20,286 bases of DNA from a virus: IMG/VR virus record IMGVR_UViG_3300032118_000072, positions 1 through 20,286 of that record. One strand, given 5' to 3'. The position numbers and the translations under genes were made by a program. Positions 1,310 to 19,927 of the stretch are shown piece after piece. Numbering within the stretch: position 1 is the stretch's first letter; each line of letters starts with the position of its first letter. Below the pieces are notes generated by a model. It saw nothing but the letters and a program-made list of their open reading frames with translations, ran no database searches and was not told the origin of the DNA.

Positions 1310-1316
1310 ATACTTA
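1310..1316 (+). promoter_or_regulatory. Candidate late promoter element ATACTTA (site 1)
   Basis: CATACTTA lies in the 33-base gap between the Cys-rich gene and the gene at 1335, 18 bases before that start codon. It is one of five copies of ATACTTA in the window, all in intergenic gaps. By analogy with the single-element T4 late promoter (TATAAATA centred at -10), transcription would start near 1322, just at the AGGAG ribosome binding site (1321-1325). The promoter role is an inference. Confidence 0.5.
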
Positions 1317-1334
1317 GCTCAGGAGCAATGGGCT

Positions 1335-1718
1335 ATGGCTGATGGCAAGATTGATTACAGTGCACTGGGGCAGGCGATTGACACATCTTGGGGTCGATCT
1401 TCGACTCCAAAGACTGCGAGTTACTCGGTAAAGTTCATGTTGCAAGGAGACAGGGTCATCGCTTCCTATGCCGCGATCGTCAATTTCGGCTCTGAAAAAG
1501 AGATGATCGTGATGAAGCGGGCTTATGCCGAAGAGTCGGTAGCTATCATTAATGAAGTTCTCAAAGCTGTCAAAGAAAATTACAAGAAACTAGCCGGCAA
1601 GGCGCTGTCTTCAAAAGAAGCCGCAACGTCAGATAGCATTGAAATCATCGGATTTGGTGTACATAATCCGAAGAGAACAGCATACTATCGCCGCAAGACA
1701 GTCTTTGACTTGAGCTGA
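1335..1718 (+). CDS. Hypothetical protein upstream of large terminase
   Basis: A 127-residue protein with a good ribosome binding site, AGGAG at 1321-1325. It reads as a small alpha/beta protein: a central stretch of strands (SVKFMLQGDRVIASYAAIV), a long basic helix (residues about 65-95) and a Tyr/Arg-rich tail. It ends three bases before the terminase start and probably heads the same transcript, under the candidate promoter at 1310. The position suggests a packaging or head-related role, and a small-terminase function might be considered. However, I see no helix-turn-helix or oligomerisation region typical of gp16, so I leave it unnamed. Confidence 0.7.
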   Translation: MADGKIDYSALGQAIDTSWGRSSTPKTASYSVKFMLQGDRVIASYAAIVNFGSEKEMIVMKRAYAEESVAIINEVLKAVKENYKKLAGKALSSKEAATSDSIEIIGFGVHNPKRTAYYRRKTVFDLS

Positions 1719-1721
1719 TCA

Positions 1722-3341
1722 ATGACGGCACCCGGGCCCATCAACAGAGATCAACAGATCAAGGAAATCTTGAAGTGTGGGCGTGATCCTGTCTATTTCA
1801 TGCGAAATTACGCAAAGATCCAGCACCCAACACGGGGTCTAATTCCTTTTGAAACGTATTCGTTTCAGGATGAGTGTGTCAGGGCGTTTGAAGAAAATCG
1901 CTTCAACATCATCCTCAAGTCAAGACAACTTGGCCTCACGACGGTCACAGCTGCCTACGCCGCTTGGTATGCGATCTTCAAAAAAGACAAAAATGTCCTA
2001 GTCATTGCCACCAAGTTGCAGACGGCCATGGGATTCATCAAAAAGGTGAAGACGATCTTGGATGGTTTGCCCAAGTGGTTGTTGCTTACCAAGTTCGAAC
2101 CCACTAAACAATCCATTGCTTTTGCAAATGGATCCACTGTAACCGCTGTTCCCACGTCGCCCGACGCGGGTCGTTCAGAAGCCTTGTCATTGCTCGTTGT
2201 CGATGAGGCCGCTTTCATTAGGGACTTTGAAGACATTTGGACGGGTCTATTTCCTACCATTTCAACTGGTGGTTCTGCGATCATCATGTCAACGCCTAAT
2301 GGCGTAGGTGGTCAGTACTATAAACTGTGGACAGAGGGAACGGCACAGATCAACGAATTCAACACGATCAACTTGCCGTGGTGGATGCACCCAGAACACG
2401 ATCAAGCATGGTTTGACAAGGAAACAAAGAACATACCAAAGCGTAAAGTTGCCCAGGAGTTTTTGTGTGACTTCATTTCGTCAGGTGACACCTTTCTTCA
2501 ACCTCCCGAGATGGACTACCTCCGTAGTATGCTCGAGCAACCGATCCGCAAAGAAGGCCCGGCACAAGGCGTCTGGATTTGGTCAGACCCAGAGCCTGGG
2601 AAACGTTACGTCATTTCAGCAGACGTCTCACGCGGTGACAGCAATGATTTTTCTACGTTTCATGTCATTGATATGATAGACTGTGAAGTGGTCGCTGAGT
2701 ACATGGGCAAGATCCCTCCTGATAAGTTGGCAGACCTGTTGAGTGAATACGGGACCCGGTACAATGTGGCACTACTATGTCCTGAGCGTAATACGTTTGG
2801 ATATTTTGCATGTGTCAAGCTGAGAGATTCCGGTTACAAACGTCTCTATTATCGCAATTACACAGGAGATCCATTTGAATTCATTTCAAATGATCCCGAT
2901 GCCGTACCTGGATTTGAAACACAGGGAAACACCCGCCCACAGATCTTGGCCAAACTCGAAGAGTTGATTCGTAACAAGACAGTCAAAATATATTCACAGC
3001 GGTTCTATGATCAAATGCAAGCCTTCATTTGGAGCGGGTCAAAGGCTCAGGCTTCTCGGGATTCTCATGATGACTTGATCCTAGGCCTGGCAATTGGATC
3101 CTGGTTGACACATGGAAATAGTGGTGTCAATGAACAAGGGTATGAGTTTGCCATGGCAATGTTGAAAGCGACTAAACGCGATCGCCGCGATTCAACACAG
3201 ATGCCAGGCGATATTGAATCAGCCCAACCGCTGGTCAATCCTAACATCCGTGGCTTCAATCCTTATAACGTTCATAAGCCCCGCGATCCATCTCAAATTA
3301 GACATGCTGACGTTAGCGACTTCAGCTGGCTTTTGCGCTAA
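1722..3341 (+). CDS. Terminase large subunit (T4 gp17-like DNA packaging ATPase/nuclease)
   Basis: The 539-residue packaging motor pumps DNA into the prohead through the portal and cuts the concatemer. The ATPase domain has a Walker A of the terminase type, KSRQLGLTT at residues 66-74, Walker B LLVVDE at 157-162 with the catalytic Glu162, and the coupling motif STPNG at 190-194. The C-terminal RNase H-like nuclease has its acidic residues at Asp301 (ISADVSRGD), Glu355 (CPERN) and Asp450/451 (SHDDLILG). The order and spacing match T4 gp17, although the protein is somewhat shorter (T4 gp17 is about 610 residues). No intein or intron interrupts it. It starts three bases after the previous stop without a clear ribosome binding site, so translational coupling is likely. 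Confidence 0.97.
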   Translation: MTAPGPINRDQQIKEILKCGRDPVYFMRNYAKIQHPTRGLIPFETYSFQDECVRAFEENRFNIILKSRQLGLTTVTAAYAAWYAIFKKDKNVLVIATKLQTAMGFIKKVKTILDGLPKWLLLTKFEPTKQSIAFANGSTVTAVPTSPDAGRSEALSLLVVDEAAFIRDFEDIWTGLFPTISTGGSAIIMSTPNGVGGQYYKLWTEGTAQINEFNTINLPWWMHPEHDQAWFDKETKNIPKRKVAQEFLCDFISSGDTFLQPPEMDYLRSMLEQPIRKEGPAQGVWIWSDPEPGKRYVISADVSRGDSNDFSTFHVIDMIDCEVVAEYMGKIPPDKLADLLSEYGTRYNVALLCPERNTFGYFACVKLRDSGYKRLYYRNYTGDPFEFISNDPDAVPGFETQGNTRPQILAKLEELIRNKTVKIYSQRFYDQMQAFIWSGSKAQASRDSHDDLILGLAIGSWLTHGNSGVNEQGYEFAMAMLKATKRDRRDSTQMPGDIESAQPLVNPNIRGFNPYNVHKPRDPSQIRHADVSDFSWLLR

Positions 3342-3349
3342 GTGCGCCG

Positions 3350-3356
3350 ATACTTA
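3350..3356 (+). promoter_or_regulatory. Candidate late promoter element ATACTTA (site 2)
   Basis: GATACTTA lies in the 35-base gap after the terminase stop and 20 bases before the start of the next gene. Transcription from about 3362 would give a very short leader carrying the AAAAGG ribosome binding site (3364-3369). It would drive the small coiled-coil gene and probably the portal gene behind it. Promoter role inferred from recurrence and placement. Confidence 0.5.
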
Positions 3357-3376
3357 CCCTCAGAAAAGGTTTTGCG

Positions 3377-3688
3377 ATGAGTAATCAGATCACCCTCCCC
3401 CGCCTGAAGACGATCATTGATGAAGAAGTCGACCGTGCTATGAAAGAGAGCGTCGACCACGCCTCGATCAGAGAAGTCGTCAATGGTGCTAGCAAGTTGC
3501 TGGCAGCTGTTGAAGCCTTCCGTGACAGCGCAAACGGACCAATGACCAGTGCCCTGACGCCGCACCTCGATGCCATGGCTCGTGCCCTAGAGGATATGGT
3601 CAGCACTCCGGGATCTTACGTGGAAAAAAAGAAGGCCACACCGCAGAAGGTATCTTTGAGGTCTGTCAAGTCAGACAAGGTCGTCTGA
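3377..3688 (+). CDS. Small helical hypothetical protein between terminase and portal
   Basis: A 103-residue, almost fully helical protein with AAAAGG seven bases before its ATG. The N-terminus (residues 6-20, ITLPRLKTIIDEEVD) is an amphipathic helix resembling the first residues of two other small genes in this window (12007 and 12538). The C-terminus is Lys-rich. It lies between gp17 and gp20 homologues, where T4 has the tail sheath and tube genes, but it is far too short to be either. A minor head or prohead-core protein is a reasonable guess from context only; no family recognised. Confidence 0.7.
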   Translation: MSNQITLPRLKTIIDEEVDRAMKESVDHASIREVVNGASKLLAAVEAFRDSANGPMTSALTPHLDAMARALEDMVSTPGSYVEKKKATPQKVSLRSVKSDKVV

Positions 3689-3764
3689 ATCATTTCCTAT
3701 ACGAGATGGTTGCGAAACCTTACTATGAACCCTGAGCCTGACCTAGAATAGGTGGGCGAAAATC

Positions 3765-6700
3765 ATGGCAAAAAAAGAAGCTCCACAGAGCCTGTTCCGA
3801 CGTTTGACCCGACTGTTTCGCAGCGGGCCCGTCATCAAGAAAAAGATCAGGACGCTTGACACGACGATTGCGGTCGCTGACAAGACTAAGTCTTCAGGTA
3901 CGTTGTTGTTTCAGAAGTCGTTGGCACCCACCTACGCCACGATCACAGCCAATGCCTATAACCTTTCTGAACGCCTGATGAGGTATCAGGATTTTCAAGA
4001 GATGGAATATAGTGTATCATTTCAAACACTTGTGCCAACCCCCGAAGGGCTAGTACAGATGGGTTCCCTTGTTGATGACTGTGTCAAGGATCCCAACAAG
4101 ACGTTCATTGTCTATGCATATGATCACGAGAAGAAACGAATTGTTCCTGCTGTCGGCAAGCAGGCCCGTCAAACGTGTGTCGATCATGCTTGGAAGGTAA
4201 CGTTTGACAACGGCAAAGAGATCACTGCAAGTCCGGAGCACAGATTGATGCTTCGCGATGGAACGTATTGCAAGGTTGAGGATCTTCAACCAGGTGATGC
4301 CATGATGCCCTTCTATCGCAAAGATCTTTTTGAAAACGCGGAAGAAGGTACAAATGGCTACTCGTGGATCTACACGATGGATAACCGTTTCCGCGGCTGG
4401 ACGAAAGAACACCAACTGATTGCAGAATGGACGGCCGGCCGCGAGCTCACAGAAGACGAGTGTGTGCACCATATCAATTTTGTTAAGACTGACAACAGGC
4501 CGGAAAATCTCCGGATCATGTCGAAGTCAGATCATAATTCCTACCATGCAGCCATCAACAACGGCGTCAAGTGGAATGCAGAGACAAATAACGAGTGGAT
4601 TGAAAAGTTCAAGCAAAACCATGCTGTGTGGATGCGGGATAACGCTCCCACCCGTCGTAAAGACGTGACATTCGCAAAGATTCTACAGACTTGTGAGCGA
4701 GTAGGGTTCAACATTGGACGGGTTTCAAGCGTACTAGACGTTAGTTTCAACTTGATTCATGAGCGACTAGTTGCAAACGGGTTCAAAAGTTTTGATGAGT
4801 TTTCGAAGACCTATTCGTCAGGTGGAACTTATGACAACAAGGTTGCTGTTGGTCTTCTGACACGCGATCTTTCAATTGAGAAAATCGTCTCTGTTTTGGA
4901 AGAAAACGACACAAAACAATCTGTTGCAATCAAGTTGGGTTGTACTGTCAATGTTCTTGACAAGTTCTTGAATCGTCGCATCAATGTCTCGTGGAGCGAA
5001 CTTCGTGCTCAATTGGGATATGACTGTTCAAAAATTAATATTAAGTCTACCGGTCGTCCTGTAGGATCAAATGGACGTCCTCTGACGTTTAAGCAGATTT
5101 GTGATGCTTATGAACCTGGATTGACATTGCCTCGTCTTTCAGAGAAGCTATGTGCTAACAAGAACACAGTCATCTCTAGGCTAGCTCAGAATGGTCATAA
5201 GAAGTACAGTGAGTTTCAAGAGTCATATCAGAATTGTAAAGTCGTTTCAGTCGAGTACGTTGGTGAAATTCCACTCTATGATCTGACCGTCGACGGTTAC
5301 AAAAACTTCGCCACTGACAGCGTAATCTCACACAATACACCAGAGATCGCCGCGGCCCTTGATATCTATGCAGACGAGACAGTTGCCGCCGACGAGAAAG
5401 GTCAGTGTCTGCACATCTACTCTGACAACGAGAAGATCAAAGAGGTCCTCGAAGACCTTTTTTACAACACCTTGAACATCGAGTTCAACCTCCGATCTTG
5501 GGCCCGTAACCTGGTCAAGTACGGCGATTTTTTCCTCTACAACGATGTGTCACCGCACTACGGTGTCGTCTCTGCATTTCCGATTCCAGTCAATGAGGTC
5601 GAGCGCGAAGAGAACTATGACCGTGATGATCCGTTTGCAATCCGGTACCGTTGGGTCACCCTAGGTAACCGCGTCCTAGAAAATTGGGAAGTGACTCACT
5701 TCCGTCTATTGGGCAACGACATGTTCTTGCCTTACGGGTCATCTGTCATTGAACCTGCCCGACGCATCTGGCGACAGTTGATCTTGATCGAAGATGCAAT
5801 GTTGGTGTACCGCGTTGTCAGGGCCCCCGAGCGCCGCGTCTTTTACATTGACGTGGCCAATGTGCCGGCCGAAAATGTCGGCATGTACATAGAGGAACAA
5901 CGCAAGAACTTGCGGACCAACCAGGTCGTCGACAGGTCGACAGGCCGCGTTGATCTCAGGTATAACCCACTCTCAGTTGACGAAGACTATTTCATCCCAG
6001 TCCGTGGGTCAGAGTCGGGCACTAAGATTGAAACGCTGGCAGGCGGCCAGAACACTGCTGCGGTCGAAGACGTCGCCTACATCCAGAAGAAGTTGTTTGC
6101 GGCCTTGAAGATTCCCAGGGCATATCTCGGTTACGACGAATTGCTTTGTTTGTCTGGTGACACCAGAGTGCCTCTTTTGTCAGGAGAATCATTGGAACTT
6201 CATGATCTAGTGAAGAAATTCAATGAGAATTCTGAGCAGATTTGGGTATATTCGTGTGATGCAATCACTGGCAAGATCATTCCAGCAAAGGTGACAAAAG
6301 CATGGAAAACGAAAGACGTCAATGAAATATATGAAGTGACTCTAGACACCGGTGACGTCATCAGGTGTACAAATAATCACCCATTCTTGTCTCGCGATGG
6401 AGCGTATGTTCGGGCTGATGAATTGGCAACTGGAACCAGTCTGATGCCTTTGTATCGTCGGCTGTCTAATAAGTCTGACGGTGATTTTCAGAGCGGATAT
6501 GAGAAGGTACTTGATAACTCAAGCGGTGAGTGGAAATTTACACATCGTGTTGTCAACGACACAGGACTAGTCATCGATGATGAATCACGATTGATTGAAC
6601 GGAGTTACGTTGTTCACCACGTGGATCACGACAAGAGAAATAACCTGCCACAAAACCTTGTCAAGATGGGAAAAAAGGCGCACATTCGTCACCATGCTTC

Positions 6701-8198
6701 CGGTGCGGTTGCAAACCTTTTGACGACAGCATCACGCGATAGGTTGCGGGAAACAATGCAGACGCCCGCGTACCGTCAGGTTCACCAAAAGGGTGTTCAA
6801 GACGCTTGGTCTCGTGATGATGGTTCACGTCGTTTGCTTGTTGCAAATAACAACAGTAAGCACAAACGAAAAGATGTTGATCTTGAAGTTGCACACCGCA
6901 TTGCGGCAACATGTCTAGATAGAAAAGAATTCTATAGAAAGATTGGCCTAACATACACCGGATTTTCAAGAACCTGTGCACGGCAAGGCATTCATCATGG
7001 TTCATGGTTGACAAGCGTCTTTGGTAACAAAAGGCGCGGAATCAAACGAAACCACAAGGTTCTTAGTGTTCGCGTGGTCAGGCTAGATGCTCCGTTGCCT
7101 GTGTACGATCTCACCGTAGAAGGTCATCACAATTTCGCAGTTCAAGCAATCGGTCAGACACTCGATTCATTTGGAAATTGTGTGTTTGTTCACAACAGCT
7201 CAAAGGCTACGCTTGCGCAGGAGGACATCAGGTTCTCGCGGACCATCAGCGTCATCCAGAAGGTGATGTTGGCTGAGCTCAACAAACTGGCCATCATTCA
7301 CCTTTATGCCCACGGGTATGACCAGGATGATCTACAAAATTTTACCCTGAGACTGTCGAATCCATCGACCGTGGCTCAACAGCAGAAGCTCGAACTGTGG
7401 AGATCTAAGTTTGAGATCGGAGGCAGCGCTCCTGAGGGCTTCGTCAACAAAGACTTTGTCCGTAAGGAAATTTGGGGTCTCAACGACGATGAATGTCGTC
7501 AGATTGATGAAAATCGTCTGAAAGATAAAACCGTTGATGCTGCAATTGAAGCCGGTGGAGGTGGAGAAGGTGGTGCTGCCGGTGGTGGAGGAGAAGATCT
7601 TTTTGGAGGAGAAGAAGCCGGCGGTGGTGAGGCTGCTCCTGCTGAAGAAACACCACCCGAAGAAAATGCTTCAGATGAACCAGAAGAAGAGAAGCAACCC
7701 GGAATAGAACTCTTGACGTCTGCCGATGATCTTGATGAAGATGATGAAACATTTGGATTGAAATTGAGTCTCAAGGACACTGAAGTGCCTCTTAAGGCAC
7801 AAAAACAACTTGACAGGGCACTGTATAATCGTAGTCGAGTTCGGCACCATGGTGCTAGCAAAACTCACATGCCCGATTTCAACAAAATGACATCGAATGA
7901 CAACCACGCGATGGAAGATCCGTACGATAATGATTGGATCAAATCAGTCGTCAGCAATCCATTCGGAGAATCACGTAGTGCTGCGCCTCATCGAACTCAC
8001 ATTTCATCTGACGTGATGTCAATGTTGAAGGGTTGGTCGCGGCGTCACGGAATTTCGAGTGATTCGCAGGGTTCTGTATTGACTGAGAATGTTAACGAGA
8101 CAATTGTAGAAATCGATGAAGAAGAAGCAAACCGGTTCAACACCGGTGATGAAAACGATGTACTTATCATCGATGACGATGGAGATGATGAACTGTGA
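3765..8198 (+). CDS. Portal protein precursor (T4 gp20-like) interrupted by two inteins
   Basis: The 1477-residue precursor holds three extein parts: residues 1-82, 525-794 and 1145-1477. Joined they give about 685 residues, longer than T4 gp20 (524) because of an added C-terminal tail. The extein junction sequences read smoothly when inteins are removed: QDFQEMEY joins TPEIAAALDIYADE, and AYLGYDELL joins SSKATLAQEDIRF. This is the gp20 pattern of an N-terminal 'PE..AA.D...DE' region and a middle 'P..YLG.....' region. The portal forms the dodecameric vertex ring through which DNA enters, nucleates the prohead and joins the tail. Precursor residues about 1260-1320 are a Gly/Glu-rich linker. 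The last 40 residues are very acidic and contain TIVEIDE, also found in the scaffold. A good ribosome binding site (AGGTGG) precedes the ATG. Confidence 0.93.
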   Translation: MAKKEAPQSLFRRLTRLFRSGPVIKKKIRTLDTTIAVADKTKSSGTLLFQKSLAPTYATITANAYNLSERLMRYQDFQEMEYSVSFQTLVPTPEGLVQMGSLVDDCVKDPNKTFIVYAYDHEKKRIVPAVGKQARQTCVDHAWKVTFDNGKEITASPEHRLMLRDGTYCKVEDLQPGDAMMPFYRKDLFENAEEGTNGYSWIYTMDNRFRGWTKEHQLIAEWTAGRELTEDECVHHINFVKTDNRPENLRIMSKSDHNSYHAAINNGVKWNAETNNEWIEKFKQNHAVWMRDNAPTRRKDVTFAKILQTCERVGFNIGRVSSVLDVSFNLIHERLVANGFKSFDEFSKTYSSGGTYDNKVAVGLLTRDLSIEKIVSVLEENDTKQSVAIKLGCTVNVLDKFLNRRINVSWSELRAQLGYDCSKINIKSTGRPVGSNGRPLTFKQICDAYEPGLTLPRLSEKLCANKNTVISRLAQNGHKKYSEFQESYQNCKVVSVEYVGEIPLYDLTVDGYKNFATDSVISHNTPEIAAALDIYADETVAADEKGQCLHIYSDNEKIKEVLEDLFYNTLNIEFNLRSWARNLVKYGDFFLYNDVSPHYGVVSAFPIPVNEVEREENYDRDDPFAIRYRWVTLGNRVLENWEVTHFRLLGNDMFLPYGSSVIEPARRIWRQLILIEDAMLVYRVVRAPERRVFYIDVANVPAENVGMYIEEQRKNLRTNQVVDRSTGRVDLRYNPLSVDEDYFIPVRGSESGTKIETLAGGQNTAAVEDVAYIQKKLFAALKIPRAYLGYDELLCLSGDTRVPLLSGESLELHDLVKKFNENSEQIWVYSCDAITGKIIPAKVTKAWKTKDVNEIYEVTLDTGDVIRCTNNHPFLSRDGAYVRADELATGTSLMPLYRRLSNKSDGDFQSGYEKVLDNSSGEWKFTHRVVNDTGLVIDDESRLIERSYVVHHVDHDKRNNLPQNLVKMGKKAHIRHHASGAVANLLTTASRDRLRETMQTPAYRQVHQKGVQDAWSRDDGSRRLLVANNNSKHKRKDVDLEVAHRIAATCLDRKEFYRKIGLTYTGFSRTCARQGIHHGSWLTSVFGNKRRGIKRNHKVLSVRVVRLDAPLPVYDLTVEGHHNFAVQAIGQTLDSFGNCVFVHNSSKATLAQEDIRFSRTISVIQKVMLAELNKLAIIHLYAHGYDQDDLQNFTLRLSNPSTVAQQQKLELWRSKFEIGGSAPEGFVNKDFVRKEIWGLNDDECRQIDENRLKDKTVDAAIEAGGGGEGGAAGGGGEDLFGGEEAGGGEAAPAEETPPEENASDEPEEEKQPGIELLTSADDLDEDDETFGLKLSLKDTEVPLKAQKQLDRALYNRSRVRHHGASKTHMPDFNKMTSNDNHAMEDPYDNDWIKSVVSNPFGESRSAAPHRTHISSDVMSMLKGWSRRHGISSDSQGSVLTENVNETIVEIDEEEANRFNTGDENDVLIIDDDGDDEL
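4011..5336 (+). mobile_element. Intein 1 in the portal protein (HNH homing endonuclease type)
   Basis: Residues 83-524 of the precursor (442 residues). It starts with Ser in SVSFQTLVPTPEG (block A) and ends with block F-like YDLTVDGYKNFA and block G VISHN, followed by Thr+1; block B-like ITASPEHRLML is also present. These are the residues needed for protein splicing: nucleophile Ser1, penultimate His, terminal Asn and Thr+1. The endonuclease insert has the HNH signature HHINFVKTDNRPENL (from residue 235). Behind it lie about three helix-turn-helix-like units (roughly 4665-4803, 4830-5010 and 5086-5220), probably for target recognition. The insert is more A+T-rich than the flanking extein. It likely spreads by cutting intein-less portal genes. 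Confidence 0.93.
6147..7196 (+). mobile_element. Intein 2 in the portal protein (HNH homing endonuclease type)
   Basis: Residues 795-1144 of the precursor (350 residues). It opens with block A CLSGDTRVPLLSG (Cys1), has block B-like RCTNNHPFLSRDG, block F VYDLTVEGHHNFA, and ends at FVHN with Ser+1. All splicing residues are intact, so it should be active. The endonuclease part shows HHVDHDKRNNLPQNL (from residue 951), the HNH variant also used by intein 1, then a long basic region and one helix-turn-helix-like unit (about 6880-7010). Different nucleophiles (Cys1/Ser+1 here, Ser1/Thr+1 in intein 1), different lengths and low overall similarity suggest the two inteins arrived independently rather than by duplication. 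Confidence 0.93.
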
Positions 8199-8218
8199 TC
8201 ACCGCAGATCACGGTGAT
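8198..8218 (+). other. Short hairpin after the portal stop codon
   Basis: ATCACCG (8198-8204) pairs with CGGTGAT (8212-8218) around the 7-base loop CAGATCA, directly at the portal stop codon. There is no T-run behind it, so a classical terminator is unlikely. It could be an RNA-processing or mRNA-stabilising structure, or chance. Confidence 0.3.
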
Positions 8219-8267
8219 AGGCTGGTTGAACAATGACCTGCTTGAAATTGAAAGGACGTTGACCAAA

Positions 8268-9128: not shown

Positions 9129-9132
9129 AATT

Positions 9133-10572: not shown

Positions 10573-10578
10573 GAAAAT

Positions 10579-10992: not shown

Positions 10993-11027
10993 TCGGCCTT
11001 TTTGGTAATTGCTGTATGCTTATGATC

Positions 11028-11510
11028 ATGAGTTATGGCATCGTATACTACTGGTTTTGCAATAAAACAAACATGGGTTACATTGGTAAAACTACTAATA
11101 CACTGTACGGACGTTGGAAAGGTCATTTGCATAATGCACTTAATCCTAAGTCTAAGACCGGTCATTGGGAATTCCCAAAAGCAATTCGTGATCACGGAAA
11201 AGATTTTTTTGAAGGACGTATTGTTTGTGAGTGTGATTCTCCTGAAGAATTGGCATTGATGGAAGATCATTGGATAAAGAATTTGAATACGCTGTGGCCC
11301 AACGGTTATAACATGCGTGATGCCTCTGGATTTGTTTGTGACCAAACACGTCAATTGATTTCTGAACGTACTCGTGAAGCAATGGCGCACCTAGATCCTA
11401 GATGTAAGGAACGTCAACGTAGTGCCATGAAAGATCCTGAGACAAGAAGAAAAATCTCTGAGCGAACTAAAGAAGCAATGAAGCGTCGTAGAGACAAAGA
11501 ATCACCATGA
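11028..11510 (+). CDS. GIY-YIG homing endonuclease, free-standing (Seg-like)
   Basis: A 160-residue protein with the GIY-YIG motif at its N-terminus (GIVYYW, then GYIGKT about 10 residues on), the basic WKGHL helix and the catalytic Glu in LMEDHWIKNL. Two NUMOD3-type basic repeats follow (QLISERTREAM and KISERTKEAMKRR), used by T4 Seg enzymes for DNA binding. In-frame ATGs at 11016 and 11022 are alternative starts; 11028 places the motif in the usual position, and none has a strong ribosome binding site. It sits between the small structural gene and deformylase, and its stop overlaps the deformylase start (ATGA). No splice-site or intron features are evident, so it is probably a stand-alone selfish gene. 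Confidence 0.9.
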   Translation: MSYGIVYYWFCNKTNMGYIGKTTNTLYGRWKGHLHNALNPKSKTGHWEFPKAIRDHGKDFFEGRIVCECDSPEELALMEDHWIKNLNTLWPNGYNMRDASGFVCDQTRQLISERTREAMAHLDPRCKERQRSAMKDPETRRKISERTKEAMKRRRDKESP

Positions 11511-12004
11511 ACGTTGTCCTTTATCCTTCGGAAAATTTGCACGTCCCGTGTCGTCAGGTCGAAAAATTTGATCATGGCCTCCGCACGACAGTTGCTAGCA
11601 TGGTCGACACGATGTATGCCTCGAGCGGTGTGGGTCTGGCGGCACCCCAAATTGGAATCCAAGAGCGACTAGTTGTTATTGATCCATCAGCAGGCCAGAA
11701 GGCGAACGATCTTGTGACGCTTGTCAATCCTAAGATAACCTGGCGCTCAAGTTCATCAGAGATGGGACTCGAAGGGTGCCTATCATTGCCCGGGATCACT
11801 GTCAACATCTCCAGGCCGACTGAAGTTGAAATTGAGTACCAGGACGTTCTTGGCCAGACTCATCACAATTTTTTCACCGGTTGGCCCGCCCGGGTGGTGC
11901 AGCATGAAATTGACCACCTAGACGGGGTCTTGATGATAGATCGAGCCTCTCCAATGGAACACAAGATGGCACTCAAGAATGTTTCAAAAATTGTAAGGGT
12001 GTGA
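11507..12004 (+). CDS. def: Peptide deformylase
   Basis: A 165-residue enzyme that removes the formyl group from nascent N-formylmethionine. All three signature motifs of the metal-dependent family are intact: GVGLAAPQIG (residues 42-51), EGCLSLPG with the metal-binding Cys, and QHEIDHLDG with both metal-binding His and the catalytic Glu. The length is near that of bacterial Def. Phage deformylases are known, especially in marine T4-like phages, and are thought to support synthesis of short-lived or abundant proteins. No transit peptide. It starts inside the stop codon of the GIY-YIG gene with no strong ribosome binding site, so its translation may depend on that gene or on coupling. It lacks a long C-terminal extension. 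Confidence 0.95.
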   Translation: MNVVLYPSENLHVPCRQVEKFDHGLRTTVASMVDTMYASSGVGLAAPQIGIQERLVVIDPSAGQKANDLVTLVNPKITWRSSSSEMGLEGCLSLPGITVNISRPTEVEIEYQDVLGQTHHNFFTGWPARVVQHEIDHLDGVLMIDRASPMEHKMALKNVSKIVRV

Positions 12005-12006
12005 CT

Positions 12007-12483: not shown

Positions 12484-12537
12484 TCGTGAAGTGAGTGCCT
12501 ATTTAGACGTAGCACTAATGCAAGAGAGGGTGCAACA

Positions 12538-12789
12538 ATGAGATTGACGTCAAGATTGCTCAAGCGAATCATCGAAGAAGAAGTTTCCAAATTTGGTGCC
12601 ATGGACGACGTTGAGTCCCGTGCCAAGGACACAGAGGAGACGGATGCTGATGAACTTGCTGATGCTCTAGAAAAAAAGATCGATTACGCCAAGGCGCTAA
12701 AGGTTGAAGAAAGTCGCCTCCGCCGGCGTCTGGCTAAGATCAGTGAAACACGTGTTCGTGTTTTGAAATCGATCGCTCGTAAGGTCTGA
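12538..12789 (+). CDS. Small charged coiled-coil protein
   Basis: An 83-residue protein with a good ribosome binding site (GAGAGGG, about 8 bases before the ATG). The N-terminal helix (LTSRLLKRIIEEEVSKFG) resembles the N-termini of the genes at 3377 and 12007. Residues about 30-80 are a continuous charged helix with heptad-like spacing, probably a coiled coil. It has no Cys and no membrane segment. Its size, acidic/basic alternation and position before the scaffold recall small T4 prohead-core proteins, but I cannot assign it to a family. Confidence 0.7.
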   Translation: MRLTSRLLKRIIEEEVSKFGAMDDVESRAKDTEETDADELADALEKKIDYAKALKVEESRLRRRLAKISETRVRVLKSIARKV

Positions 12790-12806
12790 AAGAAGAAGAG
12801 GACACA

Positions 12807-13421: not shown

Positions 13422-13448
13422 GAAGGCATAACCTTGCACGGCAATCCG

Positions 13449-13455
13449 ATACTTA
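13449..13455 (+). promoter_or_regulatory. Candidate late promoter element ATACTTA (site 3)
   Basis: GATACTTA lies in the 64-base gap before the scaffold gene, 30 bases before its start. Transcription from about 13461 would cover the scaffold and, with only a 50-base gap behind it, the major capsid gene. No separate copy of the element precedes the capsid gene, so this site may be the main source of capsid mRNA. Inference from recurrence and position. Confidence 0.5.
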
Positions 13456-13485
13456 ACTTTGAGATTGTAGGGAAACGTTTAGCAC

Positions 13486-15492
13486 ATGTCAAAGGAACTT
13501 TACGAAGAAGCGCTGGCAGATGTCAAGCGACTAAAGAAAGTCGCTGAAGATAATGCTAAGCGTGATCTAGCTGAGGCAGTCGCTCCTCGGATCCGCGATC
13601 TAATTGAAAAAGAACTTCTCCGCGAGATCAATGAAGAAGATAATCTCGATGAAGACGTTCCAGGCGCTCCTGGGTCTCCGTCAATTTCTGGAGACTTGAT
13701 GACGGATGACGAGGTTCCTGTTTCAGGTGTTCCTGAAGCCGGTGACACCGACCTCGCGGCAATTTCTATGCCTGACGAAGAAGGTAAAGTCACTTTGGAT
13801 CTTGATTCATTGATGACAGATCCTGCCGGAGCCGCCGTTGAATCACCGATGTTTGGCGGTGAGACTGAATATGAAATGAGCATGGAATCTGTCGAGGCAT
13901 TGTCGCCGATCATCAATGCTACTAAATCGAACCTAGTAAAAGAACTCGAGTCGAGTCTTTATCGTCTCGGTGAATCAATCAAACGATTTAAAGCGGCCAG
14001 CATGCTCGTCAGGGAATCTCGTGGTTATTCAGAGCATATCGCTCAGATGATTTCCCGTGTAGAGAATATGTATGACTACGTGCAGGAGTCAGTTACTGAT
14101 CCACGCAGTAAGAGTTCATACGAAGCAAAACTCGAAAGCTACTTCAAAGAACTCAACAAGCTCCAGGAGCATAAGATGTCTAAGAGAACCCTCAGGGATA
14201 TGATGAACGAGAGTGATGTGACGCTGAAACTTACCGGCTTGCCTGATGAGATTGACCTCGACTCTGTCGGTGTTGATCTAATCACTGGCGAAGAAGGTGA
14301 AGAAGGCAGCGAAGAAATGGACCTCGGAGATTCTGGTGAGGGCGGCGAGGAAGGAGGCGAAGAGGCTGGTGAAGACCTTGACCTCGACAGTCTCGATCTC
14401 GGCGGTGATGAAGATTCTGAAGACGAAGGAGAGGATACAAAGATGGGTGAGTCTCGTAGGCTAAGTGACAACACGATCGTTGAGATCGATGAAGGTATGC
14501 TTCGCCGCGAAATTGCTCGGATGAAGAACCTCCGTGAAGACGCAGTTCCTTCAACGAAGGGTTCTGGACCTGGTAAGGGCACGCATTCTTTTGGCGGTGG
14601 TAAAGAAGAAGCTGACCTCCCTTGGGGCGTAGACGTTACAACCGAGAGCGATGCTGATGAAGATGATGAAGATGACATGATGGACGAGGGTCCAGATGGC
14701 GATCTCACCATGGACGAAGATCAGGATCAAGACCAGGACGATGAGCTCGATGAGATGGACGGTCTCGAGCAGAGCTACGGCATGGATCAGGCTGAAGACA
14801 CCCGTGATGTCGGTGGAGACGTTGCTCCTAAGAGCATGGGCGGCGGTGCTGAAACCCGTAAGCAGTCCCGTGAGCCCGGTCAGACGATGGAGTCACTCAA
14901 GCGCCGGATTACGTTTGAGAAGCGCCTGCAGGAACGGGCCAAGGTCCGTAGTGCCTCCTTGAAGAAAGAGGCAGCCCGAGCGATTGCTAGTAAAGATTCA
15001 CGCAAGTTGAATGCATTGAAGACTGAAAATGCGACCTTGCGCCAGCGGTTCACTGAGTCGGTGAACCGTGTCAGGAAGATGTCGAAGGTCTTGGCGGAAG
15101 CCAAGTCTCGCAGAGGTGTTCGCCCCAATGGCACACCGACCCGGCCCGCGGAGAATATGGCCGAAGGAACACTCCGCAATAAGTTGGCAGAAACGAATCT
15201 GTTCAACGCGAAGCTAGTCTACACGAACAAGTTGCTGCAGAACGAGGCCCTGTCTAAGAAGCAGAAGGCCGAGATCATTCAGCGTCTTGATGAGGCGAAC
15301 AGCCTCCGTGAAGTGAAGCTCATCTACGAGAGCCTGACCAAGACACTGGCTGGAACCTCTCGTCCCCTGGCAGAAAATGCTGATCGCAAGGTCATGGGTT
15401 CTTCTTCTAGGGCTATGCGGCCGGCCTCAACCTCTCTGAACGAGGGATATGAGACCGACAGGTGGCAGAAGCTCGCAGGCATCAACAAGTGA
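13486..15492 (+). CDS. Prohead core/scaffold protein (gp22 position)
   Basis: A 668-residue, very acidic, mainly helical protein placed directly before the major capsid gene, where T4 has scaffold gene 22 (T4 gp22 is about 270 residues, so this is much longer). Residues 1-50 are helical; 139-245 are a long coiled-coil-like region. Residues 268-320 and 388-428 are Glu/Asp/Gly-rich tracts, the second with a DQDQDQDD run. Between them is TIVEIDEGMLRREIARMK (330-347), whose first seven residues also occur in the portal tail. The last 240 residues are again helical and basic (ESLKRRITFEKRLQERAK onward) and end in RWQKLAGINK. It would form the core on which capsid protein assembles, then be cleaved by the protease. 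Assignment rests on position and composition. AGGG lies 13 bases before the ATG, a weak arrangement. Confidence 0.75.
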   Translation: MSKELYEEALADVKRLKKVAEDNAKRDLAEAVAPRIRDLIEKELLREINEEDNLDEDVPGAPGSPSISGDLMTDDEVPVSGVPEAGDTDLAAISMPDEEGKVTLDLDSLMTDPAGAAVESPMFGGETEYEMSMESVEALSPIINATKSNLVKELESSLYRLGESIKRFKAASMLVRESRGYSEHIAQMISRVENMYDYVQESVTDPRSKSSYEAKLESYFKELNKLQEHKMSKRTLRDMMNESDVTLKLTGLPDEIDLDSVGVDLITGEEGEEGSEEMDLGDSGEGGEEGGEEAGEDLDLDSLDLGGDEDSEDEGEDTKMGESRRLSDNTIVEIDEGMLRREIARMKNLREDAVPSTKGSGPGKGTHSFGGGKEEADLPWGVDVTTESDADEDDEDDMMDEGPDGDLTMDEDQDQDQDDELDEMDGLEQSYGMDQAEDTRDVGGDVAPKSMGGGAETRKQSREPGQTMESLKRRITFEKRLQERAKVRSASLKKEAARAIASKDSRKLNALKTENATLRQRFTESVNRVRKMSKVLAEAKSRRGVRPNGTPTRPAENMAEGTLRNKLAETNLFNAKLVYTNKLLQNEALSKKQKAEIIQRLDEANSLREVKLIYESLTKTLAGTSRPLAENADRKVMGSSSRAMRPASTSLNEGYETDRWQKLAGINK

Positions 15493-15542
15493 TGCGTGAA
15501 CATCGATTACCAAACCAACTGAAAGAAAACGGAGAATACACC

Positions 15543-17450
15543 ATGAAGTTTTTTACACTAGAGCAGCTGTCACAGGGAATTCGCGAGAAGCATGTCGGCG
15601 TCGAGCGAGCCCGTCTCGTTGAAAAGTGGAGCCGCACTGGCTTGCTCCGCGGTCTCGATGGTTTCAAGCGCGAGATGATGGCACAGCTCCTGGAAAACCA
15701 GGCTGCCCAGGTCCTCAAGGAGAGCAACTCGCTCTCGACTGGTGGAGGCGCCGTTGCGTCCTCTGGCCAGATCCAGGGCTTTTCGAACATCGCATTCCCG
15801 ATCGTCCGCAGGGTGTTCGGTGGCCTCGTCGCGAACGAGCTCGTCTCGATTCAGCCCATGTCACTGCCTTCCGGCCTGATCTTCTACCTTGACTACACGT
15901 ATGGTTCGAATGTCGGCGGTGAGGCAGGTGCTAGCCTCAGCAACTCTTCCACGTTTGAGACCTATCAGCGTGGGCAGTCCATCTACAACAACCCAGTAGG
16001 TAAGGGAATCCAGTCAGGATCCTTGACGTCGGGTGGTATGTACGACCTGGTCAACGTGGGTTACTCCAAGGTTCACAGTGGAACTCTGGGTCTTGCCACG
16101 GCATCTCTCGGTGCCTGGACCGGAGCTTCTGATGCATTTGTTTCTGATGCAATTGTCACTTCGGTGACTGATTTCTCGGGTACCAACGCTCGTCAGTTGG
16201 GCTTCGATCCTCAGGTTGAAGTCGACCTGCAGCAGAACACGCTGGACCTCCAGTTTGTTTTCCTGTCAGTTGCCGACCTTCTGACGGCAATCCCGAAGGG
16301 TGATACACTGGCTCCGGAGCAAGTTGCAATCTTCGGATTCTCTTCAGCTGGTGGTTCGGTCGCCTGGGGTGATGCATACCAGTCGGGCAAGGGTGTCCTC
16401 AACCTCCGCCGCCTCAACCGCCGCGGAAACTTCACGGCCGGTGTCTTTACGCCTGATCCGCTGAACGGCACGCACATCATGTCGGCTCTCCGAATCACCA
16501 ATGGCAGCACCAAGCCCATTGTCACAGCAAGCACGACCAAAGTCTCCATGGCCATCACTGATGCGCTCACGGTTGACGGTGGTTCCGGAGCAACCTTGAC
16601 GGTCCCGTCGTTTGAAACTGACTTCGGCACCACACCGACTCCGGCGATCCCTGAGATCGATATCAAGATCGAGGCGATCGCAATCACAGCCACGACACGG
16701 AAGCTCCGTGCTCGCTGGTCGCCTGAACTAGCACAGGACCTCAATGCGTACCACTCGATGGACGCTGAGGTCGAGCTGACGAGCATCTTGAGCGAGCAGA
16801 TCGCCCTTGAGATCGACCGCGAGATTTTGAGTGACCTGGTGACCCAGGCCAACGGTGCCAACTTCTACTGGAGCCGTTCTCCAGGCCGCTTCGTCAACAA
16901 GCAGACCGGCGATCGCCAGGCTCTGGCTTCAAGCCTTAGCATCGGCCCGCAGTTCACCGGCACCGTCCGTGAGTGGTACGAGACCTTGGTCGAGACCATC
17001 ATCGACGTCGCCAACACCATCCACCGCAAGACCCTCCGCGGGTCGGCCAACTTCATGGTCACCGGTCCGGATGTCTGCACCATCCTGGAGAGCTCGGTGC
17101 TGTACAAGCCGAAGTTCTCGATCGACGGCGAAGGCCAGGTTGCCTCCCCGTTCACCATCGGCGCCGAGGCCATCGGCACGGTGTCCAACCGCTTCACGGT
17201 ATACAAGGATCCGTACTTCCCTCGGAACAAGATCCTGGTCGGCTACAAGGGCGGCAGCTACCTTGAGACGGGCTACGTGTACAGCCCCTACGTGCCACTG
17301 ATCGTCACCCCGACGATCTTCGCGCCGGAAGACTTCACGCCCCGTAAGGGAGTGATGACCCGGTACGGCAAGAAAATGGTCCGAACGGACTTTTATGGCA
17401 CGGTGACAGTTTTGGACATGAACGTAATCTTAACAATTACGGCCACTTAG
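15543..17450 (+). CDS. Major capsid protein precursor (T4 gp23-like)
   Basis: A 635-residue precursor (T4 gp23 is 521). Family-typical segments are the N-terminal delta region with WSRTGLLRGL, then FPIVRRVFGGLVANELVSIQPM and GLIFYLDYTYG. In the C-terminal half are RKLRARWSPELAQDLNAYHS, DREIL and the end region FTPRKGVMTRYGKKMV. Extra length lies mainly between residues about 170 and 390, probably an insertion (I-type) domain. A candidate protease cleavage site is QVLKE/SN after Glu60, close to the known T4 cleavage after residue 65. The start at 15543 is preceded by GGAG; the frame is open upstream to 15462 inside the scaffold gene but the family N-terminus supports 15543. Base composition is richer in C and G at third positions than in neighbours, as expected for a highly expressed gene. 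A hairpin follows the stop. Confidence 0.95.
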   Translation: MKFFTLEQLSQGIREKHVGVERARLVEKWSRTGLLRGLDGFKREMMAQLLENQAAQVLKESNSLSTGGGAVASSGQIQGFSNIAFPIVRRVFGGLVANELVSIQPMSLPSGLIFYLDYTYGSNVGGEAGASLSNSSTFETYQRGQSIYNNPVGKGIQSGSLTSGGMYDLVNVGYSKVHSGTLGLATASLGAWTGASDAFVSDAIVTSVTDFSGTNARQLGFDPQVEVDLQQNTLDLQFVFLSVADLLTAIPKGDTLAPEQVAIFGFSSAGGSVAWGDAYQSGKGVLNLRRLNRRGNFTAGVFTPDPLNGTHIMSALRITNGSTKPIVTASTTKVSMAITDALTVDGGSGATLTVPSFETDFGTTPTPAIPEIDIKIEAIAITATTRKLRARWSPELAQDLNAYHSMDAEVELTSILSEQIALEIDREILSDLVTQANGANFYWSRSPGRFVNKQTGDRQALASSLSIGPQFTGTVREWYETLVETIIDVANTIHRKTLRGSANFMVTGPDVCTILESSVLYKPKFSIDGEGQVASPFTIGAEAIGTVSNRFTVYKDPYFPRNKILVGYKGGSYLETGYVYSPYVPLIVTPTIFAPEDFTPRKGVMTRYGKKMVRTDFYGTVTVLDMNVILTITAT

Positions 17451-17459
17451 GCAGACTTG

Positions 17460-17481
17460 AAGGGTCCCGCAAGGGACCTTT
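17460..17481 (+). terminator. Hairpin terminator behind the major capsid gene
   Basis: AAGGGTCCC (17460-17468) pairs over nine positions (one G-T) with GGGACCTTT (17473-17481) around the stable GNRA loop GCAA, ten bases after the capsid stop. The T-run after the stem is short and interrupted (TTTCGTC), so termination may be partial. Placement at the end of the capsid gene matches the strong terminator usually found after gene 23. Confidence 0.7.
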
Positions 17482-17485
17482 CGTC

Positions 17486-17602
17486 ATTAAGGGTGTTCAG
17501 TATACAAATCACAAGAAACAGAAGAAGTCGACCATTCGCGCGAAGAAGTTGATGTACAAGCATAAGCGAAAGTTGATAAAGGCGAAAGAGCGTCCAGTGT
17601 AA
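17486..17602 (+). other. Possible small very basic peptide without a standard start codon
   Basis: The gap between the capsid terminator and the next gene (17451-17634) contains an open frame ending at TAA 17600-17602. Its translation is coherent and strongly basic (VQYTNHKKQKKSTIRAKK, then MYKHKRKLIKAKERPV), unlike random DNA. No ATG, GTG or TTG opens it except a TTG-ATG pair at about 17549-17554, which would give a peptide of about 17 residues. ATT at 17486 has AGGGA at the right distance, inside the terminator hairpin. It could be a real small gene, a remnant, or chance. Confidence 0.3.
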
Positions 17603-17634
17603 CTCTATCCACAGAAATGGTACCATGAACCAAG

Positions 17635-18000
17635 ATGTGGCTATTTACGATTGATGGATTCTATAGTGCGGTGCAAGACAAAGACAGGAATGATGTCATA
17701 TGGATTCGAGCCCGCGTCAAGGACGATCTTTCGAGATTGGTGACAACGTATGATGTCCATGCAACAGAGATCCTTGTGGATTGTGGTACTGACTACAAGT
17801 ACCGCATCGGAGTCTGGCGCGAGGAGTGGGTCCGCATTGCAGGTGCAGTGGCCCATGACATCAACTACAACAATTTCAAGTATGCCTCAGAGACGTCTTT
17901 GGGCAAAGACCGGGCCACGGTCCTGGCTGACATTTGGTGGACCATGTATCGTCTCCAGCTCAAAGAAGAGGGAAAATTGGGCCTACCTGGGTCACTCTAG
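17635..18000 (+). CDS. Conserved hypothetical protein of the 'MWLFT' type
   Basis: A 121-residue protein with the recognisable layout of a small family seen in bacteria and phages. It opens with MWLFTIDGFYSAV, has an IRARVKDDL segment, a central CGTDYKYRIGV, a REEWVRIAGAVAHDINYNNFK segment, and ends DIWWTMYRLQ. Its function is unknown as far as I know; the compact alpha/beta look and conserved aromatic residues suggest a small soluble domain. I recall the family from memory and give no accession. The ATG at 17635 is chosen because MWLFT is the usual N-terminus; an ATG ten bases earlier is in another frame and short. It is transcribed separately from the capsid gene, being behind the terminator, but no clear promoter is seen. 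Confidence 0.85.
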   Translation: MWLFTIDGFYSAVQDKDRNDVIWIRARVKDDLSRLVTTYDVHATEILVDCGTDYKYRIGVWREEWVRIAGAVAHDINYNNFKYASETSLGKDRATVLADIWWTMYRLQLKEEGKLGLPGSL

Positions 18001-18056
18001 AATATTCTGTTTAATTTGAAGGCTGGTCACCCCATTGCCAAAAAACGAATATTCTG
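18000..18056 (+). repeat. Direct repeat GAATATTCTG, two copies
   Basis: GAATATTCTG occurs at 18000-18009 and 18047-18056, 47 bases apart, each followed by a related T/A-rich stretch (TTTAATTT and ATAATTTTT). Each copy contains the palindrome GAATATTC. The 157-base gap 18001-18157 holds no gene that I can support. A TTGCCA (18035-18040) and GATAAT (18056-18061) pair 15 bases apart and a TATGAT at 18070-18075 could form a host-type promoter for the gene at 18158, with the repeats as operator or activator sites. All of that is inference. Confidence 0.35.
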
Positions 18057-18157
18057 ATAATTTTTCAGCTATGATCTAGTGTCTTGTACACAGGTCCATG
18101 GTGGGCTTAAGGTCTAGTCACGGGCACTGGAAAGACCAGGCCCAAGGAGATATGACC

Positions 18158-18433
18158 ATGAAGAAGAAGATCGTGCAGTCCACCAACCGCAACGCTATCA
18201 TCCGCACCCGCGCCGACCGAGGTGGCAAGTTTCGCACTGAGACTGCTCGCCGTGATAACAATGCTGTGCAGTTTGCAGCGACGACCAACCCGCGGTCCAA
18301 TGCCACGGCACTGTTCCTCGATTTCCCGTTGGGTGCAATCAGGTTGTCGGGTGCTGAGGCTCGGACTCTGTACCGCGTCTTGCGCAAGCACTACAAGTTC
18401 GCCGGTAAGCCGATCCGATTATCACCGCGGTAA
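18158..18433 (+). CDS. Small basic hypothetical protein
   Basis: A 91-residue basic protein. The start at 18158 is chosen because AAGGAG (18144-18149) lies 8 bases upstream; an ATG at 18152 is too close to that site and one at 18098 lacks a ribosome binding site. The N-terminus is Lys/Arg/Asn-rich (MKKKIVQSTNRNAIIRTR). The second half reads as a compact strand-helix unit (TALFLDFPLGAIRLSGAEARTLYRVLRKHY), similar in look to small regulators or single-domain phage proteins, and it ends basic. High pI suggests nucleic-acid or ribosome contact. No family recognised. Confidence 0.7.
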   Translation: MKKKIVQSTNRNAIIRTRADRGGKFRTETARRDNNAVQFAATTNPRSNATALFLDFPLGAIRLSGAEARTLYRVLRKHYKFAGKPIRLSPR

Positions 18434-18447
18434 CAGGAAAATCTCTC

Positions 18448-18473
18448 GGCTGGGCACCTTCGGGTTCCCGGCC
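18448..18473 (+). other. Strong hairpin with UUCG loop
   Basis: GGCTGGGCACC (18448-18458) pairs with GGTTCCCGGCC (18463-18473), eleven positions with one G-T and one mismatch, closed by a C(UUCG)G tetraloop. It lies between the stop of the small basic gene and the ATG at 18500, about 11 bases before the GAAAGG ribosome binding site. No T-run follows, so it is more likely an mRNA stabiliser, processing or partial attenuation site than a full terminator. Confidence 0.5.
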
Positions 18474-18499
18474 TTGGGACGTTGAAAGGCTTCGATACC

Positions 18500-19066
18500 A
18501 TGAAACTCAACAAGGAAACAGCTCTATTTTTGACCAAGGCTCTTTTTCACTACGAGCAATCTTGCTCTATTTCTGAGTCGGTGACCCGCCGCGTCAAGGA
18601 CCTTCGCTATGAGCTCAACGAGTTCGTCCTTGGAAGGCTTGACTCCGACGAGGTCGAAAACGACAAGGGTAGCAAGGTAAGTTGGCACGTGCACGGTGAT
18701 GACTGCAACCATGCTGATGGAGAAGTCCTCGAGAAAGAGGATGATGTTGAAGATGAAGAAGAGTCCGAAGAAGTCCCTGAAACTGACGGTGAAGTCAGTG
18801 CGGGTGAACTGCACGAACTGACCGCGTGTACTTCAGACCGCGGTCAAGTAGAATTTGAGGACATCAATCATGATGGCGGACCTGCGGCGGTTGATGTGTT
18901 GATCGACGGTTACACGGAATACTATTCCGTGACCGCTGTCAAGCGAACGGCAAAGGCGCTCGAGGTGTGGACCGAAGGTGATTGGCAAACCATCAACGTT
19001 CGAAAGTTTCCCAAGGACTGGACCAAACTGTTGCCTGTCAACCAGTCGCTGTTGGTCTGTGAATGA
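18500..19066 (+). CDS. Acidic hypothetical protein
   Basis: A 188-residue protein with GAAAGG ten bases before ATG 18500 (the frame reaches TTG 18482, which lies before that site). The first 55 residues are helical. Next comes a His/Asp/Cys-containing segment (WHVHGDDCNHADGE), then an acidic low-complexity stretch (residues about 80-100, Glu/Asp-rich). The C-terminal half (from about 105) is an alpha/beta domain with VEFEDINHDGGPAAVDVLIDG. The acidic linker between two folded parts suggests a two-domain protein. No known family. Its stop overlaps the next start (ATGA), so the two genes are translationally coupled. Confidence 0.72.
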   Translation: MKLNKETALFLTKALFHYEQSCSISESVTRRVKDLRYELNEFVLGRLDSDEVENDKGSKVSWHVHGDDCNHADGEVLEKEDDVEDEEESEEVPETDGEVSAGELHELTACTSDRGQVEFEDINHDGGPAAVDVLIDGYTEYYSVTAVKRTAKALEVWTEGDWQTINVRKFPKDWTKLLPVNQSLLVCE

Positions 19067-19452
19067 AGCTCAATCTGCACCCGAAAGAGTTCCTGGCGCT
19101 GTACAACATGATCCAGCGCCAACCTCACCTTGAAGGAAAAGAGGTCGATGACGTTGCCTTGCACGAGGTTCACAATCGCATGCGGGCCTGCTTGATCTCT
19201 GCTCTGCTACACCGCCGCGACGATGATGATGACATCATGTTCGATGCCTGGGAACAGTCCCAAAGGAAAAAGATCGAAGAACTGACAATTCAAAACAATG
19301 AATTGAAATCTGCGGCAAAAGATCCAAAAGCATTCTTGAATAAGGATCATATCTTGACGCTGGAGAACCACGAGCTCGATTCTGAAGAGCTCAAGTATCC
19401 TCGTGGTCGGGCTACCACAAAACCCGGCAGGCACACAGGCCATAAAAAGTGA
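19063..19452 (+). CDS. Hypothetical coiled-coil protein coupled to the preceding gene
   Basis: A 129-residue protein starting in the ATGA overlap with the preceding gene. It begins MKLNLHPKEFLALYNMI, resembling the N-terminus of the preceding protein (MKLNKETALFLTKALF), which hints at a common origin or common regulation of the first codons. An Asp run (DDDDD) is followed by a helix with coiled-coil character (SQRKKIEELTIQNNELKSAA) and a basic Gly/Lys-rich tail (GRATTKPGRHTGHKK). No membrane segment, enzyme motif or recognised family. Confidence 0.72.
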   Translation: MKLNLHPKEFLALYNMIQRQPHLEGKEVDDVALHEVHNRMRACLISALLHRRDDDDDIMFDAWEQSQRKKIEELTIQNNELKSAAKDPKAFLNKDHILTLENHELDSEELKYPRGRATTKPGRHTGHKK

Positions 19453-19462
19453 ACAGCGGGCC

Positions 19463-19469
19463 ATACTTA
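19463..19469 (+). promoter_or_regulatory. Candidate late promoter element ATACTTA (site 4)
   Basis: CATACTTA lies 11 bases after the stop of the preceding gene and 48 bases before the mature tmRNA 5' end. Transcription from about 19475 would give a precursor with a leader of about 42 bases, to be trimmed by host RNase P. Role inferred from its recurrence. Confidence 0.45.
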
Positions 19470-19483
19470 TGACCTGCAGGTCT

Positions 19484-19514
19484 TTGACAATTGAGTGATT
19501 CTGTCTGATATACC
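19484..19514 (+). promoter_or_regulatory. Possible sigma70-type promoter for tmRNA
   Basis: TTGACA, a perfect -35 consensus, is at 19484-19489, and an extended -10 like TGATATACC is at 19506-19514 with 19-base spacing. A GATATA at 19507-19512 gives 17-base spacing as an alternative. Transcription would begin almost at the mature 5' end of the tmRNA. Together with the ATACTTA element just upstream, it would let the gene be read both by unmodified host polymerase and late in infection. Confidence 0.4.
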
Positions 19515-19516
19515 AT

Positions 19517-19890
19517 GGGGGCGAAATAGCTTCGACGTGGCAATGAGACTGATGATTGCAGGCACTGGTGCACGAGGGACCAGTTCAAAACCCATGTGAC
19601 GTACAAACGCCAACGACAACGGTGTTGCTCCTTTTGCCCTCGCGGCATTAGGAACGGGTGTCCCAGCGACCTTGGAACAGAATGCTGGGAAACGTCAGGG
19701 GACCAGACGTTAACTGGAACGCCGTCAAAGCGCTGGACGTAAAACGCAGTGCCGACCTGGTGACCAAGTCGCTAAATTTTCGCGTCACTAGACCCGCCCA
19801 GAGGTCGATCAAGCTGACGGGCCAAGCCTGTGGACGATGTCAACAGAGGAACTGTTGCGGACCCGGGGGCAGTACCCGGCGCCTCCACAA
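19517..19890 (+). ncRNA. ssrA: Transfer-messenger RNA (tmRNA)
   Basis: About 374 bases. The 5' end GGGGGCGAAATAGCTTCGACG matches the tmRNA start. Its first seven bases pair with CGCCTCC (19880-19886), including the G3-U70 pair that marks alanine charging. A T arm CCGGG/CCCGG (19863-19867, 19875-19879) with a 7-base loop GGCAGTA (not the usual TTC type) precedes the acceptor end. A tag-like frame starts near GCC 19609 and reads ANDNGVAPFALAA, the typical tmRNA tag form. However, the next codon is TTA, not a stop; a TAG sits one base out of frame (19649-19651) and the first in-frame stop is TAA at 19711-19713. The genomic 3' end is ACAA, so CCA is not encoded and would have to be added. tmRNA with SmpB rescues stalled ribosomes; no smpB is seen here. 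Confidence 0.9.
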
Positions 19891-19897
19891 GACGGAT

Positions 19898-19904
19898 ATA
19901 CTTA
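19898..19904 (+). promoter_or_regulatory. Candidate late promoter element ATACTTA (site 5)
   Basis: TATACTTA lies in the 37-base gap between the tmRNA 3' end and the second GIY-YIG gene, 23 bases before its ATG. Expected start of transcription about 19910. T4 seg-type genes often have their own late promoters, so the placement is reasonable. Inference. Confidence 0.45.
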
Positions 19905-19927
19905 CATCGGTAACAGATACATATTTT

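Follow-up and report, generated by a model that had tools for sequence, protein, structure and literature searches.

ATANTTA as a candidate single-element late promoter of uncultured T4-like phages, with many copies placed close to the start codon

In a clade of uncultured T4-like phages, most of them jumbo phages, the heptamer ATANTTA very probably (we put the probability at roughly 85%) acts as the single-element late promoter, together with the sigma factor and the leaderless class of transcripts proposed here. According to this proposal a phage-encoded gp55-like sigma factor would direct the host RNA polymerase to ATANTTA. The box would lie at about -13 to -6 and act without a -35 element, and the transcript would start about 6 nt after it. 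In the structural operons the distance from box to gene, 15-35 nt minus these approximately 6 nt, would leave a short leader with a Shine-Dalgarno (SD) site. At many other late genes of the relatives only 5-6 nt separate the end of the box from the start codon, so that transcription would begin with the A of the AUG or with the base preceding it and give a leaderless mRNA.

The window analysed here comprises the entire virus record (20,286 bases) and represents part of the genome of an uncultured T4-like phage. Its T4-like head module consists of a gp46-like end and genes for terminase, portal, prohead protease, peptide deformylase and the major capsid protein; a tmRNA gene is present as well. 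ATACTTA occurs five times on the + strand (1310, 3350, 13449, 19463 and 19898) and not at all on the - strand, which agrees with the original prediction in both position and strand. In shuffled windows the mean was 0.65 copies for the two strands together, and not one of 100 shuffles yielded five. The boxes and two of the genes behind them are the following.

1310..1316, + strand: ATACTTA, proposed late promoter box, 18 nt 5' of ORF 1335, the first gene of the terminase operon
1722..3341, + strand: large subunit of terminase, encoded by the second gene behind the 1310 box (phrog_2, E 4.8e-51)
3350..3356, + strand: ATACTTA box, 20 nt 5' of ORF 3377, between terminase and portal
12499..12505, + strand: CTATTTA, a weaker variant box, 32 nt 5' of ORF 12538, overlooked in the original prediction
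13449..13455, + strand: ATACTTA box, 30 nt 5' of ORF 13486, upstream of the major capsid gene
15543..17450, + strand: gp23-like major capsid protein, located behind the 13449 box and ORF 13486 (Pfam Gp23, E 3.3e-75)
19463..19469, + strand: ATACTTA box, 47 nt 5' of the tmRNA
19898..19904, + strand: ATACTTA box, 23 nt 5' of the GIY-YIG ORF

All five ATACTTA copies are intergenic, as had been claimed, in a window of which about 95% is coding and only about 4.5% intergenic (called genes and tmRNA subtracted). Four of them are intergenic with the genes as called. The 19898 box fell inside a called ORF because the gene caller had taken an over-long start; when this ORF is read from the ATG at 19928, the Pfam GIY-YIG match begins at residue 3, so that this box is intergenic as well. 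Two further features of the head module may be mentioned. A peptide deformylase gene lies within it (11507-12004), and the portal ORF (3765-8198, 1477 residues) matches an HNH endonuclease near residue 216 and, at 808-1128, an intein splicing domain, so that the portal gene probably carries inteins.

Relatives were collected by their terminase, which gave 54 viral contigs, at most 83% identical, in records of up to 309 kb. Genes were called with a simple script, and the 7-mers found in the intergenic DNA before genes were scored against their frequency inside genes. In 12 records, i.e. the window and 11 fetched relatives, which are related to one another and include the near-duplicates G009 and G010, the most enriched 7-mer before genes was ATACTTA (64 occurrences against 0.94 expected). 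Ranks 2-4 were taken by ATATTTA, ATAATTA and ATAGTTA, which gives the consensus ATANTTA with C preferred at N. Both of the proposed checks that can be made by computer favoured the original prediction, whose consensus has to be read as ATANTTA rather than ATACTTA. The motif is also intergenic and strand-specific beyond the window, across whole related records, and a strand bias is seen in many of the terminase-carrying contigs. Three extra records (324-369 kb), picked by their sigma gene and not by the motif, have ATACTTA or ATAGTTA near the top of the list. No conserved base and no conserved -35 element was found upstream of the box, in line with a single-box promoter. The T4 consensus (TATAAATA or ATAAATA) does not describe these sites, and in G014, G015 and G016 TATAAATA does not occur in the 60 nt upstream of genes. 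T4 itself, passed through the same pipeline, has ATAAATA at rank one and therefore serves as a positive control for the method.

The location of individual boxes is conserved too. ATANTTA precedes the gene in front of terminase, which is the position of the 1310 box, in 34 of 40 relatives, nearly always 403-429 nt 5' of terminase; the flanks of these sites have diverged, and an SD site mostly follows the box. A copy within 80 nt after terminase, the position of the 3350 box, is present in 12 of 34 relatives. Orthologues of ORF 13486 have ATACTTA at a gap of 21 in G002 and ATAGTTA at a gap of 33 in G001.

It is conspicuous that the distance from box to start codon is bimodal in the relatives, with one class at 15-35 nt and another at exactly 5-6 nt. 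When all patterns of the form XXXNXXX were ranked at a gap of 5-6 before 2,903 genes, ATANTTA came first with 67 occurrences against 0.96 expected, spread over 50 protein clusters, and CTANTTA was found there 19 times against 0.85 expected. SD sites accompany 69% of the far boxes (14-45 nt) but only 10% of those at 5-6 nt. Moreover, homologous genes in different records retain the 5-6 nt spacing even where their flanks have diverged. The T4 late promoter, TATAAATA, is located at -13 to -6 and involves gp55, gp33 and gp45 (PMC2988020, PMC1524935); since its box spans these positions, a gap of 5 would place +1 on the A of the AUG. This spacing, predicted to put +1 at the AUG and lacking an SD, is found in the relatives and not in the window, where the leadered class alone is represented, with no site at 5-6 nt. 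G003 has little of the 5-6 nt class, which is therefore not universal in the clade.

The genes that carry the box are of the late type. By homology to T4, a box precedes 17 of 46 structural genes and none of 31 genes for replication, nucleotide metabolism or RNA ligase (Fisher p = 4e-5), which bears out the predicted late-gene placement. Boxes stand 5' of nearly all copies of two tail-sheath paralogues, in some records also 5' of the tail tube, neck gp13 and major capsid genes, and before a gene that is similar to T4 gp5 across its lysozyme part. G001, G002, G014, G015 and G016 each encode two different gp18-like tail-sheath paralogues, adjacent or close to each other. Another recurrent feature is an N-terminus like MKITxxxLRxIIxEE, common to many otherwise unrelated small proteins that are often encoded behind a late box (in the window 3377-3688 and 12538-12789; many in G001, G002, G006 and G014-G016). 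By analogy with the internal proteins of T4, this N-terminus may serve to target the proteins to the capsid and be cleaved by the prohead protease.

The original prediction implied a divergent gp55 homologue, and such a protein is encoded by the largest relatives; the gene lies outside the 20 kb fragment that makes up the window. G001-G005 each have one protein that matched the gp55 family (phrog_234, E 7e-7 to 3e-9), G014-G016 encode close homologues of it, and the family comprises 131 loci in IMG/VR. Among 50,697 phage records, relatives of this sigma were found only in Flavobacterium immuto phages, Microcystis Mel-JY01 and one uncultured huge phage, at about 28% identity. In the alignment with gp55, region 2 lines up, and the new proteins have an extra C-terminal helical domain that is missing from gp55. 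The protein is only remotely like gp55 and differs from it at the C-terminus. Its predicted structure is confident for about residues 50-150 only, and its best fold matches, though weak, are to sigma factors. Pfam and PDB sequence searches with the protein gave nothing significant. Profiles of the gp33 co-activator and the gp45 clamp (phrog_254 and phrog_223) had no match in eight records at E <= 1, a profile-level result that leaves room for remote homologues; T4-style activation is thus not supported. No match was obtained for the late sigma phrog_12791 or for a phage RNA polymerase beta subunit; in the search for a T7-type RNA polymerase even the control genomes gave no match. Taken with the late-gene bias and the missing -35 element, the sigma of the relatives supports the predicted reading of the box as a T4-like, gp55-type late promoter.

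A second type of element occurs in the same genomes. TANNNT peaks at a gap of 6 before the start codon in five large records, and these elements come with an extended -10 (like GTGGTAGGAT), a C at -1 and, between -35 and -30, a -35 element. There are 140 full sigma70-type elements in the register that makes +1 coincide with the AUG, compared with 0-6 when the register is shifted by four or more. All five large records and G003 (i.e. G001, G002, G003, G014, G015 and G016) encode an RpoD-like sigma with a strong region 2 and an incomplete region 4, 54-73% identical to that of G002; it is absent from immuto, Mel-JY01 and T4. We infer that the TANNNT promoters are most naturally assigned to this RpoD-like sigma. 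We suggest tentatively, with the odds somewhat against it, that these phages use two sigma factors of their own, one RpoD-like for TANNNT promoters set on the AUG and one gp55-like, independent of gp33 and of a T4-type clamp, whose promoters are also often set on the AUG. The phages would then run a largely leaderless transcription programme, in which many mRNAs would be translated independently of SD pairing.

Other explanations of the motif are conceivable. As AT-rich words are generally commoner between genes, and further such words are indeed enriched there, the pattern might reflect composition; we give this next to no credence, since ATANTTA is strand-specific, top-ranked, sharply positioned and conserved over records of 36-59% GC, whereas scrambled and reversed words lack the pattern. 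Chance clustering of ATACTTA is ruled out by the shuffles, the scrambled motifs and the T4 control. It is also quite improbable that the boxes at 5-6 nt serve translation, as an AT-rich start-site element, instead of being promoters of leaderless RNA. An element whose distance from the AUG is constant could act in the mRNA, but the identical strand-specific word also sits 15-35 nt before genes, where SD sites follow it, and TANNNT in the same register has the anatomy of a promoter, with its -35, extended -10 and C at -1 and the 140 full elements against 0-6 when shifted.

It is somewhat less improbable, though still unlikely, that the box is read by the RpoD-like sigma, or by the primary sigma of the host as a -10 variant, instead of by the gp55-like sigma. 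The RpoD-like protein is present in all five large records, and the ATANTTA and TANNNT promoters share the same register relative to the AUG. On the other hand, immuto and Mel-JY01 lack an RpoD-like sigma and yet have an ATATTTA motif together with a gp55-like sigma. Moreover, the separate canonical TANNNT class with its -35 suits the RpoD-like sigma, while the ATANTTA sites have no -35. Recognition of ATANTTA by the gp55-like sigma is the reading we prefer.

In comparison with known systems, the proposed promoter shares with that of T4 the single AT-rich box without a -35, the location before late structural genes, the T4-like genomes and a sigma of the gp55 family. It differs in that T4 has ATAAATA with gp33 and gp45, whereas this clade has ATANTTA and a sigma with an extra C-terminal domain, gp33 and gp45 not being detected; copies 5-6 nt from the AUG are many in this clade and none in T4. 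Divergent late promoters are known from the T4-like phages Aeh1 (CTAAATA, PMC1524935) and S-PM2 (NATAAATA, PMC2984593). There, too, a shifted consensus goes together with a diverged gp55, but the fifth base of the box remains A and the promoters are not described as leaderless. Immuto and Mel-JY01, the nearest cultured carriers of the sigma, have ATATTTA or TATTTAT as top motif but, like T4, no 5-6 nt peak of note and no TANNNT register peak. In Actinobacteria and Deinococcus-Thermus, where leaderless genes are frequent (PMC3160421), such genes likewise have a -10 element only a few bases ahead of the start codon and lack an SD (PMC3160421, PMC12340547). The present case differs in that it concerns phage genomes and, as we propose, extends to the promoter of a phage late sigma.

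The box in front of the tmRNA deserves separate comment. The features of this site are given below.

19484..19512, + strand: TTGACA-17-GATATA, candidate sigma70-type promoter of the tmRNA, read from the sequence; it would start near the mature 5' end
19517-19890, + strand: tmRNA gene (Rfam RF00023, 60 bits), with a degenerate T arm and a CCACAA end

As TTGACA-17-GATATA lies between the 19463 box and the tmRNA, the box may not be the main tmRNA promoter. At the position of this box G002 has ATAATTA and G014 has none, and TTGACA is kept in the window, G002 and G014. The tmRNA may thus have its own sigma70-type promoter, to which the late box would add a longer transcript. ARAGORN missed the tmRNA of the window; the copies in G002 and G014 score 93 and 87 bits. 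The tmRNA ends in GGGGGCAGTACCC in the window as against GGGTTCGATTCCC in G002. In the window the GIY-YIG homing endonuclease ORF lies directly 3' of the tmRNA, and its insertion may have damaged the tmRNA (region 19517-19927). The tag peptides read ANDNGVAPFALAA in the window (by eye), ANDNGVAPLALAA in G002 and ANDNGFADDVRLAA in G014.

A host search by terminase and by sigma returned nothing from 84,980 bacterial and archaeal genomes, and the actinobacterial marker WhiB is absent in the 12 records. In the open-access literature we found no prior report of leaderless transcription in jumbo or T4-like phages; as far as we could find, late promoters placed at the start codon are undescribed in T4-type phages. 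For these widespread giant phages, of which no cultured member was found, a transcription map becomes readable from sequence alone. A shifted late promoter that is tied to a specific diverged sigma also offers a natural test of how sigma factors read DNA. Finally, if the proposal is true, late promoters set at the start codon predict hosts that translate leaderless mRNA well, which would narrow the question of the host.
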